From Phycisphaerae bacterium (GTDB taxonomy: Bacteria > Planctomycetota > Phycisphaerae > Sedimentisphaerales > Anaerobacaceae): a DNA stretch of 58,352 nucleotides. The position numbers were made by a program, and so were the translations under genes. The notes beneath the pieces are model-generated. The model searched no databases and had not been told where the DNA came from. It saw only the letters and a list, made by a program, of their open reading frames with translations. Shown in pieces: positions 42,503 through 58,352 of the stretch (position 1 is the first letter of the stretch; each line of letters opens with the position of its first letter). The stretch is taken from NCBI GenBank assembly GCA_017993835.1, contig JAGOLX010000039.1, forward strand, positions 1 to 58,352. The letters run 5' to 3'.

Positions 42503-42520
42503 GGGTGTGGAGTGGCCGGA

Positions 42521-43282
42521 ATGCGTAGCCTGCACGAATGGAGTCTGTCCTATGCCGAGGCCAGGGAGCTGCAGACCCGCTTGGCGGGGGAAGTGCAGTT
42601 CACGCCACTGAAAGAGCTGCCCCGACGGATTGCAGGCCTGGATTGTGCCTTCAGCAGGGACGGCAAGCGGATCTTCGCGGCGGCAGTGGTGCTGAAGGTA
42701 TGTAGCCCAGCCGCCCTCGGCTGGGAGACTGACACCCCCGAGGGTGGGGGTGCCACATTGGCTGCGACCTTCAAGTTCGAGCATGTCGAGACGGTCACGG
42801 CCGAGCGGAAAACAGAGTTCCCGTATGTCCCAGGCTTGTTGTCGTTTCGGGAAGCTCCGGTGTGTCTGGAAGTGGTCGGCAAGCTCAGCCGCGAGCCCGA
42901 CCTGTATATGATCGATGGACAGGGAGTCGCACATCCGCGACGCCTCGGACTGGCGGCGCATCTGGGCCTGTTCTTCGACAGGCCGACCGTCGGCTGTGCC
43001 AAAAGCCGACTGATCGGCACATTCGACGAGCCCGCCGATGAGAAGGGGGCCTGGAGCCCTCTGCGAGACGGTGAAGAAGTGATCGGCGCGGTGGTTCGGA
43101 CGCGAAGCCACGTGAAGCCGGTCTTCGTCTCGGTTGGCCAGCGGTGCCTGCTGGAAGACGCCGTGCGCGTGACTCTTGCGTGTACCACGAGGTACCGCAT
43201 CCCGGAACCGACGCGGCTCGCTCATCAGGCGGTGAGTTGGATCAAGCTGCAGGATTGCACGGGCAGCGGGCGTCAGGGGTAG
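42521..43282 (+). CDS. nfi: Endonuclease V with an in-frame repeat insertion
   Basis: 253 residues from ATG 42521 (GTG 42512 is an alternative). It nicks DNA 3' of deoxyinosine. Conserved blocks: the active-site Asp in IAGLDCAFSRDG, the substrate wedge PYVPGLLSFREAP with its catalytic Glu, and DGQGVAHPRRLGLAAHLG with the last metal Asp and His. Between AAAVVLK and FKFEHVETV lie about 20 residues (CSPAALGWETDTPEGGGAT) that the family lacks; they are encoded by a REP pair at 42702-42756. All catalytic residues remain, so the protein may still be functional. Confidence 0.9.
   Translation: MRSLHEWSLSYAEARELQTRLAGEVQFTPLKELPRRIAGLDCAFSRDGKRIFAAAVVLKVCSPAALGWETDTPEGGGATLAATFKFEHVETVTAERKTEFPYVPGLLSFREAPVCLEVVGKLSREPDLYMIDGQGVAHPRRLGLAAHLGLFFDRPTVGCAKSRLIGTFDEPADEKGAWSPLRDGEEVIGAVVRTRSHVKPVFVSVGQRCLLEDAVRVTLACTTRYRIPEPTRLAHQAVSWIKLQDCTGSGRQG
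42702..42756. repeat. REP pair (BIME) inside the endonuclease V gene
   Basis: GTAG (42702-42705) plus hairpin CCCAGCC-gccctc-GGCTGGG, then CACCCCC-gagggt-GGGGGTG and CCAC (42753-42756). Same design and near-identical sequence to the tandem copies at 52425-52548 and 56291-56400. Confidence 0.85.
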
Positions 43283-52424: not shown

Positions 52425-52548
52425 GTGGCCCAGCCACCCCCGGCTGGGGAGGCCCGGAGATCACCCCCGAGGGCGGGGGTGCCACATGTAGCCCAGCCAC
52501 CCCCGGCTGGGGAGGCCCGGAAATCACCCCCGAGGGCGGGGGTGCCAC
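52425..52548. repeat. Tandem REP pair array between the two VWA genes
   Basis: Two nearly identical units of about 61 bp: GTGG (52425) plus CCCAGCC..GGCTGGG, then CACCCCC..GGGGGTG and CCAC (52482-52485); and GTAG (52488) ... CCAC (52545-52548). A GGAGTTCCG module (52416-52424) precedes the array. The same two-unit arrangement occurs inverted at 56291-56400. Confidence 0.85.
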
Positions 52549-52571
52549 AGGCGAGTGTGCGGCGTAGGTTT

Positions 52572-53785: not shown

Positions 53786-54615
53786 GGTCCTGTGTGGTGG
53801 CGGTTCTGGCCTCGGGGGCCAGGGGCGCGGCGCCGCGGGAGATCCTCCAGGAAGGCAATGGGCTCTACGGCGCCGGTCAGTTCGCTGACGCGGTCAACAA
53901 GTACAACGACGTCCTCGTGGAGCAGCCGCAGGCGGTCGAGCCCAGATTCAACAAGGCCAACAGCTACTACCGACTGGACGACCTCGGGGAGGCGATGGAT
54001 CTCTATCAGGAAGTGGCCGCCCAGAGCAAGGACATGAATCTCGTTGCGAAAGCCAAGTACAACCTGGGCAACTGCTTCTTCCAGCGGGGAACCAAGCAGC
54101 GGGACTCCGACCTGCAAAAGGCCGTCGAGGACATGAAGACGAGCATCACCTACTGGCGTCAGGTCCTGGACCTCGATCCGAAGAACGAGAAAGCCGCCCG
54201 CAATATCGAGGTGGCCCGCCTGACGATCAAGGACATCCTCGACCAGATCAAGCAGCAGCAGAAGGACCAGCAGAACCAGCAGGACCCGAACCAGACGCAG
54301 CAGGGACAACAGCAACAGCAGCAGCAAGGTCAGCAACAGCAACAGAATCAATCGCAGCAGGACCCGAATCAGCCGCAGGATCCGAACCAGGCCAAGGACG
54401 CGAATCAGCAGAAGAAGAATTCGCAGGCCCAGGAGCCCAATCAGCCACAGGATCAGCAGCAGTCCCAGCAACAACAAGCCCAGGACCAGCAGCAGGAGCA
54501 GAAGGTCGCGCCCGACGCGACCGCTCAGGAGCTGATCGACAACGAGCAACGCCAAAAGAAAGAACGTGAGATTCGCCGAAGAGGGCAGTACCAGCGAGTC
54601 GAAAAAGACTGGTGA
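53677..54615 (+). CDS. TPR protein with long Gln-rich tail (BatC-like)
   Basis: 312 residues from Met 53677 (MAETLLHVGSPVSSFG); its first 35 codons come from a dispersed repeat and form a hydrophobic leader ending ILLWSCVVAVLASGARG. TPR units (about 48-175; EGNGLYGAGQFADAVNKYND, FNKANSYYRLDDLGEAMDLY). Residues about 192-285 are a Gln/Asp/Pro/Asn low-complexity tract (QQDPNQ-type repeats). It ends with a basic helix. This matches BatC/BatE-type TPR proteins of aerotolerance operons. It overlaps the next gene by 4 bp (ATGA). Confidence 0.82.
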   Translation: MAETLLHVGSPVSSFGLRSFVLVSSFEIRASRFILLWSCVVAVLASGARGAAPREILQEGNGLYGAGQFADAVNKYNDVLVEQPQAVEPRFNKANSYYRLDDLGEAMDLYQEVAAQSKDMNLVAKAKYNLGNCFFQRGTKQRDSDLQKAVEDMKTSITYWRQVLDLDPKNEKAARNIEVARLTIKDILDQIKQQQKDQQNQQDPNQTQQGQQQQQQQGQQQQQNQSQQDPNQPQDPNQAKDANQQKKNSQAQEPNQPQDQQQSQQQQAQDQQQEQKVAPDATAQELIDNEQRQKKEREIRRRGQYQRVEKDW

Positions 54616-56567
54616 TGAAAGACGTTCTGAAATATGTCGTTCTGGCGATGTGTCTCACCCATCCAGCCATGGCGGGCAGTGGGGACAATGTCCGCGTCCG
54701 CGCCGTGGTCAACTCGGAGACCGCCATCTACCCCGGCGACACCTTCCAGTATTCCATCGTCGTCGAGGGGGGCAGCAAGCCGAGCAAGATCGACCTGTCG
54801 CCGTTGAACCCCTTCAATCCTCGTTCCGCCGGCGATGGCTCGTCGTACCACCAATTCCACGACCAGGTCGTGATCAGTCACTCCTTGAATTACGCGATCA
54901 CGGCCAAGGAGGCCGGCACGATGCACCTTCCCGGCGTGACGGTGGTCGTGGGCGGCAAGACCTACACCACCAACGCGGTCGATGTCGCGGTCTCGAAGCC
55001 GGGAACGACGGACCGTATGGCCGTGGAGTTTTCCGTCTCGGAGCGGACGTGCTACGTGGGCCAGCCGATCGTCATGACCGTGCAATGGACCGTCTCGGCC
55101 CGCTGGCAGAACGTCGCGTTCGACGTGCCGGTCTTCAAGTCGGACGCTTTCCTCGTCGAGGAGGTCTCTTCTTCGGGCGGTCCGGCCGGCGGCGAACAAA
55201 CGCTCATCGACGGGGTCCCGACGACCGTCCGTGGCACTCGCCAGCAGGTCAAGGGCGTGGAGGCAGAGGTCTTCGTCTTCAGCAAGGTCCTCATTCCCCA
55301 GCGTGCCGGCCGCCTCGTCCTCGATCCGGTCAGCGTCTCCGCCAATCTCGCGGTCGGTCGGGTCCGGACGAGCGATTTGTTCAATCCGTACACCCTGAAG
55401 TATGAGCGGGCCGCGGTGCAGTCCGCGTCCATCGAGCTGGAGGTGCGGGCGCTGCCGGAGACGGGCAAGCCCGCGGAATTCTATGGGCTGGTCGGGCGGT
55501 ATACGATCAGCGCCTCGGCCACGCCGACGAAGGTCAGCGTGGGCGACCCGATCACCGTGACCATCCGGATCGGGGGCAATCCGTATCTCAAGGCCCTGCA
55601 GTGGCCGCAGCTCGAGCAGGTGCCGGAGCTGGCGGCGAACTTCAAGATCCCGTCCGAGAAGGCCTCGCCGACCATCGAGGCTACGGCGGAGGGCCCCTGC
55701 AAGGTCTTCACTCAGACGCTCCGCGCCAACAGCGAAACCGTCACGCAGGTCCCGCCGATCCCGCTGGCCTATTTTGATTCCCAGCGGGGCGAATACGCCG
55801 TGGTCCGGACCGATCCGATCCCGCTGGAGGTCGCGCCGACGAAGATGCTCACGAACGCAGACCTGGAAGGCGCGGGGTCCGCTCCGGTGAACCGGGAGGT
55901 GGAGGCGATCCGCAAGGGCCTGTCGGCCAACTACTATGGCCCGGAGGTTCTGGTGGATCAGACCTTCTCACTGCCGTCGGCCATGGTCAGTCCCGGATAC
56001 GCCGCGATCTGGGCGATTCCGTTTGCGGGCCTCGTCGCCAGTGCCGCGATCCGTCTGTCCGGCCGGTCCAATCCCGCGTCGCTCACCCGCAGGCGTCATC
56101 GTCGAGCCGCCGGCGTGGCGGTGCAGCAACTGAAGGCCATCGTCTCCGCCGATCCGAAGCAGAGATCCGAACTGCTGCTGACCGCCCTGAAAGGCTATGT
56201 CGGCGACCGCTTCGACCGGGTCGCGGCGTCGCTGACGCCGGAGGATTGCCGACAGGTGATCGCGCAAGCTCTCGACGCGGTGGCACCCCCGTGGCACCCC
56301 CGCCCTCGAGGGTGTCTTTCCCCAGCCGGGGGCGGCTTGGCTACCTGTGGCACCCCCGCCCTCGGGGGTGTCCTTCCCCAGCCGGGGGCGGCTGAGCCAC
56401 CGGAACTCCAGACCGATTCGCCTTCTTCCCTTGCGAACCGGTACGCGGACTTGATCGCCGCCTGCGAGGGCTCGCGGTATTCCCCCCTGGCCTCCGACAT
56501 CGGCGCCGCCCAGGTCCAGGAGGCGACGGAGTTGATCGACGCCATCGAGAGGCGGGTGAAGCAATGA
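54612..56567 (+). CDS. BatD-like oxygen-tolerance protein with in-frame repeat insertion
   Basis: 651 residues. Signal peptide (VVLAMCLTHPAMAG), a long beta-rich outer region (about 20-455; VRAVVNSETAIYPGDTFQYS and later repeats of the same fold), one membrane helix (GYAAIWAIPFAGLVASAAIR, about 462-481) and a cytoplasmic helical tail. This is the BatD architecture. About 50 residues in the tail (about 560-607; starting WHPRPRGCLSPAGGG) are unlike the family and encoded by a tandem REP array. Translation stays in frame and the normal ending resumes (LANRYADLIAACEGSRYSPL). It overlaps the next gene by 4 bp. Confidence 0.9.
   Translation: MMKDVLKYVVLAMCLTHPAMAGSGDNVRVRAVVNSETAIYPGDTFQYSIVVEGGSKPSKIDLSPLNPFNPRSAGDGSSYHQFHDQVVISHSLNYAITAKEAGTMHLPGVTVVVGGKTYTTNAVDVAVSKPGTTDRMAVEFSVSERTCYVGQPIVMTVQWTVSARWQNVAFDVPVFKSDAFLVEEVSSSGGPAGGEQTLIDGVPTTVRGTRQQVKGVEAEVFVFSKVLIPQRAGRLVLDPVSVSANLAVGRVRTSDLFNPYTLKYERAAVQSASIELEVRALPETGKPAEFYGLVGRYTISASATPTKVSVGDPITVTIRIGGNPYLKALQWPQLEQVPELAANFKIPSEKASPTIEATAEGPCKVFTQTLRANSETVTQVPPIPLAYFDSQRGEYAVVRTDPIPLEVAPTKMLTNADLEGAGSAPVNREVEAIRKGLSANYYGPEVLVDQTFSLPSAMVSPGYAAIWAIPFAGLVASAAIRLSGRSNPASLTRRRHRRAAGVAVQQLKAIVSADPKQRSELLLTALKGYVGDRFDRVAASLTPEDCRQVIAQALDAVAPPWHPRPRGCLSPAGGGLATCGTPALGGVLPQPGAAEPPELQTDSPSSLANRYADLIAACEGSRYSPLASDIGAAQVQEATELIDAIERRVKQ
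56291..56430. repeat. Tandem REP pair array inside the batD-like gene, plus GGAG module
   Basis: GTGG (56291) .. CTAC (56341-56344) and GTGG (56347) .. CCAC (56397-56400), the reverse complement of the array at 52425-52548. It is followed by ggaactccagaccgattcgc (56402-56421), the complement of the module preceding the other array. Confidence 0.85.
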
Positions 56568-57586
56568 CGATTCGCAAAACAGCTCTGCTCGTGGCGGCCC
56601 TGGTGCTTGTGGGATTCTGTGACCCGTGGGCGGTGGCCCGTGGTGGATCGGAGAAAGCCAGATCGGGCCTCTATTCTTCAACGAAATCTCTGGGTTCGAT
56701 TTCGTTGACGAATAGACAGGACGAAACCCGCGATGCGCGAGGTTCGGAGTTCCGCCTTCAGGCGGATCAAGACCGCGTAAACGCGGAACTCCGAACGGAT
56801 CTGCCCTTTTCCGATCCTGCCCAGGCGACGCCCATATCCCGCGAGGACTTCCATGCCGTTCTGAACGAAGCCAACGCCGCCTTCCAGCAAGCGAACGCGG
56901 CTCAGGACCCTGACGCTGGACGACAACTTTTCGACAAGGCCATCCTCCTCTATGAGAAGATCATCGACCAGGGCGGCATCCGGAACGCGGGACTCTACTA
57001 CAACCTGGCCAACGCCTATCTCCTCAAGGACGACCTCGGCCGGGCCATTCTGAACTACCGCCGGGCCGAGAGGCTGGATCGCTCCGACCTGAACATCAAG
57101 AAGAACCTGGCGTTCGCGCGGAGCCGTCGGATCGACCGGGTCGAGACGGCCGCCCCCAAACGCGTGCTGGAGACCCTGTTCTTCTGGCACTACGACCTGT
57201 CGCTGCGGACGAGATTCCTGCTGGTCTGCCTGGCCTTTGCGGCGCTGTGCCTGGCGGGCATCGCCATGATCCGGCGGGGTCGAGGGACAGCGAGCACCGC
57301 CGGTGCGGTTCTTTCCGGCGTACTCGTCCTTTCCCTGCTGGCCTCGATCCTCATCGAAACGCACCGCCAGTCGCGTGAGCGGTTCGGCGTCGTCACGACC
57401 GCTGAGGTCGTCGCCCGCCAGGGCGACGGGCCCAACTATCCGCCCAGCTTCAAAGACCCCCTGCACGAGGGCACCGAGTTCGATCTCATCGAGCAGCGTC
57501 CCGGCTGGCTCCACATCCGCCTCGCCGACGGCGCCGACGCCTGGGTCCCCGAAGACGCCGCGGAACTGGGCGGCTCGGAAAGCTGA
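56564..57586 (+). CDS. TPR/SH3-domain membrane protein (BatE-like) with repeat-derived segment
   Basis: 340 residues. Signal peptide (LLVAALVLVGFCDPWAVA), then about 50 residues (36-86) encoded by two palindromic repeats. TPR units follow (about 95-190; GLYYNLANAYLLKDDLGRAI), then two membrane helices (about 210-230 and 240-262) and a C-terminal bacterial SH3 domain (about 275-335; VVARQGDGPNYPPSF then LIEQRPGWLHIRLADG). TPR plus SH3 is the BatE architecture. It is the last gene of the operon; only 4 bp separate its stop from a convergent small gene. Confidence 0.88.
   Translation: MTIRKTALLVAALVLVGFCDPWAVARGGSEKARSGLYSSTKSLGSISLTNRQDETRDARGSEFRLQADQDRVNAELRTDLPFSDPAQATPISREDFHAVLNEANAAFQQANAAQDPDAGRQLFDKAILLYEKIIDQGGIRNAGLYYNLANAYLLKDDLGRAILNYRRAERLDRSDLNIKKNLAFARSRRIDRVETAAPKRVLETLFFWHYDLSLRTRFLLVCLAFAALCLAGIAMIRRGRGTASTAGAVLSGVLVLSLLASILIETHRQSRERFGVVTTAEVVARQGDGPNYPPSFKDPLHEGTEFDLIEQRPGWLHIRLADGADAWVPEDAAELGGSES
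56673..56713. repeat. Inverted repeat 'tcaacgaaatc' inside the batE-like gene
   Basis: ATTCTTCAACGAAATC (56673-56688) and GATTTCGTTGACGAAT (56698-56713) are inverted arms (15 of 16 bases). The same core occurs at 58183-58221. Confidence 0.8.
56742..56796. repeat. GGAG-footed REP pair inside the batE-like gene
   Basis: Perfect 14-bp outer arms GTTCGGAGTTCCGC (56742-56755) and GCGGAACTCCGAAC (56783-56796). Each end is a hairpin with a GGAG foot: GGAGTT CCGCC-ttca-GGCGG and its inverted partner CCGCG-taaa-CGCGG AACTCC. The sequence after it (ggatctgcccttttcc) matches the complement of 52396-52411, linking it to the module near the other arrays. Confidence 0.85.
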
Positions 57587-58065: not shown

Positions 58066-58105
58066 AGAACCTCCCGGGAGACGGAAAAAGGCGAAACGGG
58101 CCTAC

Positions 58106-58148
58106 TTTGAGGGAGAAAAACCTCTTGGCTCGGTTTTTCCCCCTCAAA
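58106..58148. repeat. 17-bp inverted repeat near the window end
   Basis: TTTGAGGGAGAAAAACC (58106-58122) and GGTTTTTCCCCCTCAAA (58132-58148) pair at 16 of 17 positions. It lies upstream of the zinc-ribbon gene. It could be a repeat unit or a terminator-like hairpin. Confidence 0.6.
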
Positions 58149-58182
58149 CCGTTGTCGCGCGTCGCGAGCCTCGTGGTGTCCG

Positions 58183-58221
58183 TTCCTCAACGAAATCGAA
58201 CCACAAGATTTCGTTGAGGAA
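58183..58221. repeat. Perfect 15-bp inverted repeat 'ttcctcaacgaaatc'
   Basis: TTCCTCAACGAAATC (58183-58197) and its exact complement (58207-58221) enclose a 9-bp loop. It shares the tcaacgaaatc core with 56673-56713 in the batE-like gene. The rest of 58066-58352 contains nothing recognisable. Confidence 0.8.
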
Positions 58222-58352
58222 TATAGAGACTGTAGCAACGTTGCAGAGCATTTCTATCCTGTCTCACGGCGTTGTTGATGGAGAGTGGCGGTGGTTTGAT
58301 AGCGGGCGGGAGCTTGCAGGTCACGCTGCATGTCCAAAGCGATACGGCAACG

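Follow-up and report, generated by a model that had tools for sequence, protein, structure and literature searches.

An inverted REP pair read in frame inside an endonuclease V gene of a Phycisphaerae bacterium, and a second palindrome family found inside genes of the same genus

Midway through the endonuclease V gene (nfi) of a Phycisphaerae bacterium lies a short palindromic element that is open in the frame of the gene, raising the question of what the element is, how it could have arrived there and what it does to its host protein. We examined this in the 58,352-nt contig that carries the gene (JAGOLX010000039.1, assembly GCA_017993835.1; the whole stretch is hereafter the window), in the rest of the genome (G000) and in eight congeneric genomes (G001 to G008), building on an earlier note that was made from the letters of the window. 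The genome has nine matches to PF07596 (DUF1559-type), a family that gave none in 14 control genomes, which fits a planctomycete.

The nfi product has both marks of endonuclease V (EndoV), namely the catalytic Asp/Glu/Asp/His residues and an RNase H-like fold: its AlphaFold2 model (mean pLDDT 89.5) has T. maritima EndoV (3hd0) as its top PDB match, with a TM-score of 0.93 normalised by the target. Across 30 homologues D43, E113 and D134 are invariant and H237 is conserved in at least 90%, and as read from the alignment these residues correspond to D43, E89, D110 and H214 of the T. maritima enzyme; the catalytic motifs are kept, as the earlier note had said. Third codon positions hold most of the differences between nfi and its congeneric counterparts (32:26:103 by codon position, and similar), so the gene is under purifying selection for its protein.

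The element within nfi consists of a GTAG head, an 8-bp hairpin, a spacer, a 7-bp hairpin and a CCAC foot (ATGTAGCCCAGCCGCCCTCGGCTGGGAGACTGACACCCCCGAGGGTGGGGGTGCCACAT), and its predicted folding energy is -33.8 kcal/mol, against -23.5 on average for shuffled sequences (z -3.1). Each side is an imperfect palindrome headed at its 5' end by GTRG, as GTAG on the left and as GTGG on the minus strand on the right, and the two inverted REPs are joined by a short spacer whose length differs among copies. Because the aligned copies (n = 25) retain a near-invariant GTRG head and the CCAC foot, the nfi element is an inverted pair of REPs, that is, a REPIN-like unit. The two-hairpin pair reported in frame within nfi is therefore present, and neither its folding nor its copy number is that of a chance palindrome; the bounds first given, 42702-42756, agree with ours in the GTAG and CCAC ends, the best bounds being 42700-42758. 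The pair amounts to 19 extra codons, read as CSPAALGWETDTPEGGGAT, and the predicted EndoV sequence at the insert includes GWETDTPEGGGAT. An antisense ORF reading was tested and rejected. The model bears out the proposed position between beta-strands, placing the insert in a loop (pLDDT about 55) flanked by strands 52-62 and 88-99, after the strand ending VVLK and before the strand FEHVET. The features are collected in Table 1.

Table 1. Features of the window and copies of the 163-bp palindrome; positions are those of the window unless a locus is named.
Feature	Position	Strand	Remarks
nfi, endonuclease V ORF	42512..43282	+	GTG start; alternative ATG at 42521; PF04493, E 4.7e-68
Inverted REP pair (REPIN-like), ATGTAGCC...GCCACAT	42700..42758	+	in-frame reading CSPAALGWETDTPEGGGAT
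GTAG head of REP 1	42702..42705	+	near-invariant GTRG in 25 aligned copies
Hairpin 1, arms 42706-42713 / 42718-42725	42706..42725	+	8-bp hairpin; folding
Hairpin 2, arms 42733-42739 / 42746-42752	42733..42752	+	7-bp hairpin; folding
CCAC foot, equal to the minus-strand GTGG head of REP 2	42753..42756	-	alignment of copies
Two tandem REP pairs between coding regions	52425..52549 (52425-52486, 52488-52549)	+	flanks code in different frames
Two tandem REP pairs near the C-terminus of a BatD-like ORF (54570-56564, +)	56290..56400	-	open in frame
Partial copies of the 163-bp palindrome	56650-56736; 58083-58226	+; -	outside clear coding frames
Copies of the 163-bp palindrome	L080 4432-4594; L156-L185 (about 1501-1663); congeners L231-L237

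The REP unit is a dispersed 56-nt repeat that occurs in both orientations and in several frames. A pattern for the left half of the element, GTAGCCCAGCCNCC..GGCTGG, matched the genome 65 times and its reversed control 0 times; BLAST with the REP unit returned 80 matches, and the genome search with a covariance model that the earlier note had proposed found 122 places in 71 clusters, of which 13-17 are in frame. Most clusters score as intergenic or weak, making this a high-copy, dispersed and mostly extragenic family. At E <= 1e-7, REP numbers were 77 in this genome, 51 in G003, 25 in G008, 18 each in G005 and G002, 3 in G007, 1 in G006 and none in G001 and G004. The near-identical element noticed at 52425 is real and does lie between genes, but as two tandem copies rather than one. 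A further REP doublet, at 56290-56400, was missing from the list in the earlier note; the coding score of its BatD-like ORF downstream of the doublet is weak (2.2).

We next turn to the homologues of EndoV. Four congeners (draft assemblies) have no detectable nfi, and the insertion was accordingly scored in the other four (G002, G003, G005 and G008), all of which lack it. Its residues were found in 0 of 29 homologues (the 4 congeners and 25 more distant relatives), so that no homologue carries the same residues without the palindromic DNA, and the sole match of a contig scan, in an Emcibacter MAG, was due to chance. At the insertion site the loop has 27 residues here and about 10-15 in the congeners, a gain of 11-17 and not 19 because the congener loops differ too; the roughly 20 added residues first proposed thus describe the element and not the net lengthening of the protein. 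The expected absence from relatives was borne out while clean edges were not, the loop being variable already: with a different loop in every congener, the empty site does not match to the nucleotide, and any replacement of a few target codons is indistinguishable from drift. No convincing target-site duplication of the REP pair was found. From these alignments the EndoV insertion is real, though not perfectly clean, and lies in a naturally length-variable beta-turn loop. A different EndoV loop contains, in other genera of the family (L040, L041, L045, L057, L058 and L059), inserts that are in frame and resemble translated short repeats, for example TSHEPRATSDE, from 7-mer SACGAGY units (NTQYAIRDTQYE).

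In-frame insertion is also seen in other genes. We scored the flanks of all 71 REP clusters with a codon model trained on the same genome, which is not an independent annotation. At the strictest, middle and loosest thresholds, 9, 13 and 17 clusters, respectively, had an open frame that continued the coding sequence of both flanks. At most 4 clusters had same-strand coding flanks out of frame; they resemble borders between genes and include the RAYT locus described below. The hosts of in-frame REPs include two Ser/Thr kinases, a GH43 protein, a radical SAM enzyme, a glutamine cyclotransferase, KdsB, an EEP phosphatase, FtsK, a penicillin amidase and a three-domain beta-lactamase/transglutaminase/PGA_cap protein (several clusters), and many of the matches fall within Pfam domains. 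In a Ser/Thr kinase (L069 1793-2113), four REP matches form an array of about 107 codons that is in frame. At least 5 reading frames of the element are used across these unrelated proteins, the element itself being stop-free in at least 4, usually 5, of the 6 frames.

Several of these sites have empty counterparts in sister species. A double REP insert in the EEP phosphatase and a REP insert in the N-terminal region of HolB are each absent from 8 of 8 congeners, leaving clean empty sites, and by this comparison the EndoV insertion is the less clean case. In KdsB, 5 of 8 congeners are empty and 3 of 8 carry an unrelated insert in the REP-bearing loop; this insert (G001, G007 and G003; L138, L148 and L149) is about 30 codons long. 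The corresponding loop of the glutamine cyclotransferase is empty in G004, G006 and G007, holds a minus-orientation REP pair in G000 and G005 and a plus-orientation pair in G002 and G008, and in G000 the REPs are partly duplicated or tandemly arranged. These patterns show that tolerant loops are hit repeatedly. The cyclotransferase REP (L155 / L083) is identical at 58 of 58 nt between G000 and G005, within flanks that are 82-87% identical. Under purely passive, neutral carriage the two copies should have diverged; their identity suggests gene conversion, re-insertion or a constraint at the DNA level. The idea of a palindromic element that survives inside ORFs is thus well founded, in many genes and with sister-species empty sites for several of them. 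The REP pair shares with the class of Rickettsia palindromic elements (RPEs) both frame-keeping insertion into ORFs and homologues that lack the insert, the EndoV loop being also variable in itself; to that extent the likeness to RPEs drawn in the earlier note holds in principle.

A candidate agent of REP movement is encoded in the same genome. Y1_Tnp (PF01797) has 5 matches, one of which, on contig C37, lies inside a REP array: this RAYT ORF (C37:114782-115240, locus L068) has the HUH motif PDHVHML and sits between two REP arrays. G005 has a RAYT that is 95% identical and also inside a REP array, so that in both genomes a cognate RAYT gene is flanked by the same REPs. G003 has 51 REPs, yet its best match to this RAYT is 34% identical. 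The association is one of position, and from it we infer that the C37 RAYT probably mobilises the REP family.

Taken together, these results make it very probable that a RAYT-mobilised REPIN entered nfi and is tolerated there as a neutral passenger. On this reading, two tail-to-tail REPs with outer GTRG heads make up a non-autonomous mobile unit of REPIN type, which is probably spread by the RAYT (an HUH/Y1 transposase) encoded inside an array of the same repeats, and one such pair entered nfi in the ancestry of this genome. The insertion would survive because the net insert preserves the frame, the GC-rich element is mostly free of stops and the beta-turn tolerates extra residues. If translated, these residues would make up a predicted disordered loop that should leave catalysis unaffected, and similar in-frame insertions have occurred repeatedly in this genome and in sister species.

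The step most open to another explanation is the arrival of the element. Recombination or template switching between repeat copies could have brought the REPs in without RAYT action, in keeping with the tandem arrays and partial duplications that are common here (the cyclotransferase of G000, the 107-codon kinase array) and with a REP copy number that does not everywhere track a close RAYT, as in G003. We regard this as unlikely, since the new sites in the EEP phosphatase and HolB lack flanking homology and require an insertion step, and since two species have a RAYT gene within a REP array. Less likely still is that the insert was recruited, its extra loop or mRNA hairpins regulating EndoV through RNA binding, translation rate or stability and being kept by selection. 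The strong hairpins predicted in nfi mRNA, the perfect conservation of the cyclotransferase REP between G000 and G005 and the large number of genes for replication and repair among those tagged by REPs (PMC3733652) would fit such a role; the EndoV copy, however, occurs in one species only, and the analogous 163-bp palindrome (below) lacks the codon-position bias of its host genes. That the REP-encoded peptide itself is under selection was rejected because at least 5 frames are in use in unrelated proteins.

That nfi is a pseudogene, or that the insert arose in assembly, is very improbable. The genome is indeed a draft (115 contigs), and repeats are a source of assembly errors, but the flanks are unique and other in-frame REP insertions are common to separately assembled species, while the intact ORF, its catalytic residues and the third-position excess of differences speak against decay. 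As for the loop being ordinary EndoV sequence that is GC-rich and palindromic by chance, length and composition do vary across the EndoV family; this reading was nonetheless refuted by the copy number and the reversed-pattern control, the same unit recurring in other clusters, orientations and frames and its residues occurring in no homologue, and we give it practically no credence. The mobilised and tolerated REPIN remains our preferred reading.

The genus harbours a second element, a 163-bp palindrome with the TIR GGAAAAAGGCAGATCGGGCCTA. This genome has roughly 35 complete or almost complete copies of it, and it was found in 6 of the 9 genomes of the genus and in 0 of the 32 others searched (41 in total). 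At least 16 of 30 copies lie in frame inside genes with coding flanks and are read mostly as SEKGRSGLYSSTKS...PPQSRPDLPFS; the hosts include what we take, from reading the sequences, to be PurQ-like, NadE-like and hydrogenase-like proteins. Congeners are empty at such sites, the cleanest of which shows a net insert of 165 nt, or 55 codons. Two insertions of this genome are shared, at the same codon, with G005 and G004. Differences by codon position there are 10:5:26 and 11:3:34 in the upstream flanks, a strong third-position bias, and 3:4:3 and 10:7:13 within the element, little or no bias; the encoded peptide is therefore not under detectable protein-level selection. The flanks of this palindrome (L156-L185) are often mutual inverted repeats (e.g., CCGGACT / AGTCCGG in L175), as if it inserted at the centre of palindromic targets. 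In L072, L075, L079 and L081 a REP pair is apparently nested in copies or remnants of the 163-bp palindrome within ORFs. We found no published description of this element in the open-access literature, and it is more novel than the EndoV REP case.

Intragenic REPs have in fact been described. Although the earlier note took REP/BIME elements to be known as extragenic repeats, Di Nocera et al. (2013; PMC3733652) reported intragenic GTAG and CGTC REPs in several phyla, a verrucomicrobium among them, with dimers encoding 20-30 residues and the highest GTAG count in O. terrae; they also identified the Rickettsia elements RPE-4 and RPE-6 with CGTC REPs. The EndoV case is thus not new in kind. Those REPs (Opitutus terrae, Thauera and others) resemble ours in their GTAG/GTGG-headed hairpins, in dimers of about 20 residues lying in frame within unrelated genes, those for repair among them, in their spread with RAYT genes and in their occurrence in the PVC superphylum; they differ in host genus and apparently in REP sequence. 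To that work the present REPs add sister-species empty sites, opposite orientations at one loop and arrays of up to 107 codons. The REPINs and RAYTs of Bertels and Rainey (2011; PMC3116915) likewise combine an inverted REP doublet as the mobile unit with a family-specific RAYT flanked by REPs, but the Pseudomonas REPINs were described mainly as extragenic, whereas here a sizeable minority of clusters lies inside genes.

RPEs (Ogata et al. 2000, 2002; summarised in the review PMC10969869) are similar in behaviour: a palindrome has entered unrelated genes in frame, at positions that tolerate it. They are about 150 bp long and without a known transposase, as against the 56-nt REP pair in EndoV, and the closer parallel to RPE-1 is the 163-bp palindrome. 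We consider it likely, with some reserve, that the genus hosts two unrelated coding-compatible palindrome families, that the 163-bp one is a counterpart of RPEs outside Rickettsia and that particular protein loops are recurrent landing sites for different selfish elements.

For annotation, these findings call for caution, as the repeated segments VAQPPPAGE, SPAAPGWG and VAPPPSGV are probably translated mobile DNA and not domains. More broadly, they indicate, outside Rickettsia and with natural empty sites, that working proteins, among them enzymes of repair and biosynthesis, can be made longer by mobile palindromes. Whether such inserts are selfish passengers or supply the material for novel stretches of protein is an old question that is now directly testable.
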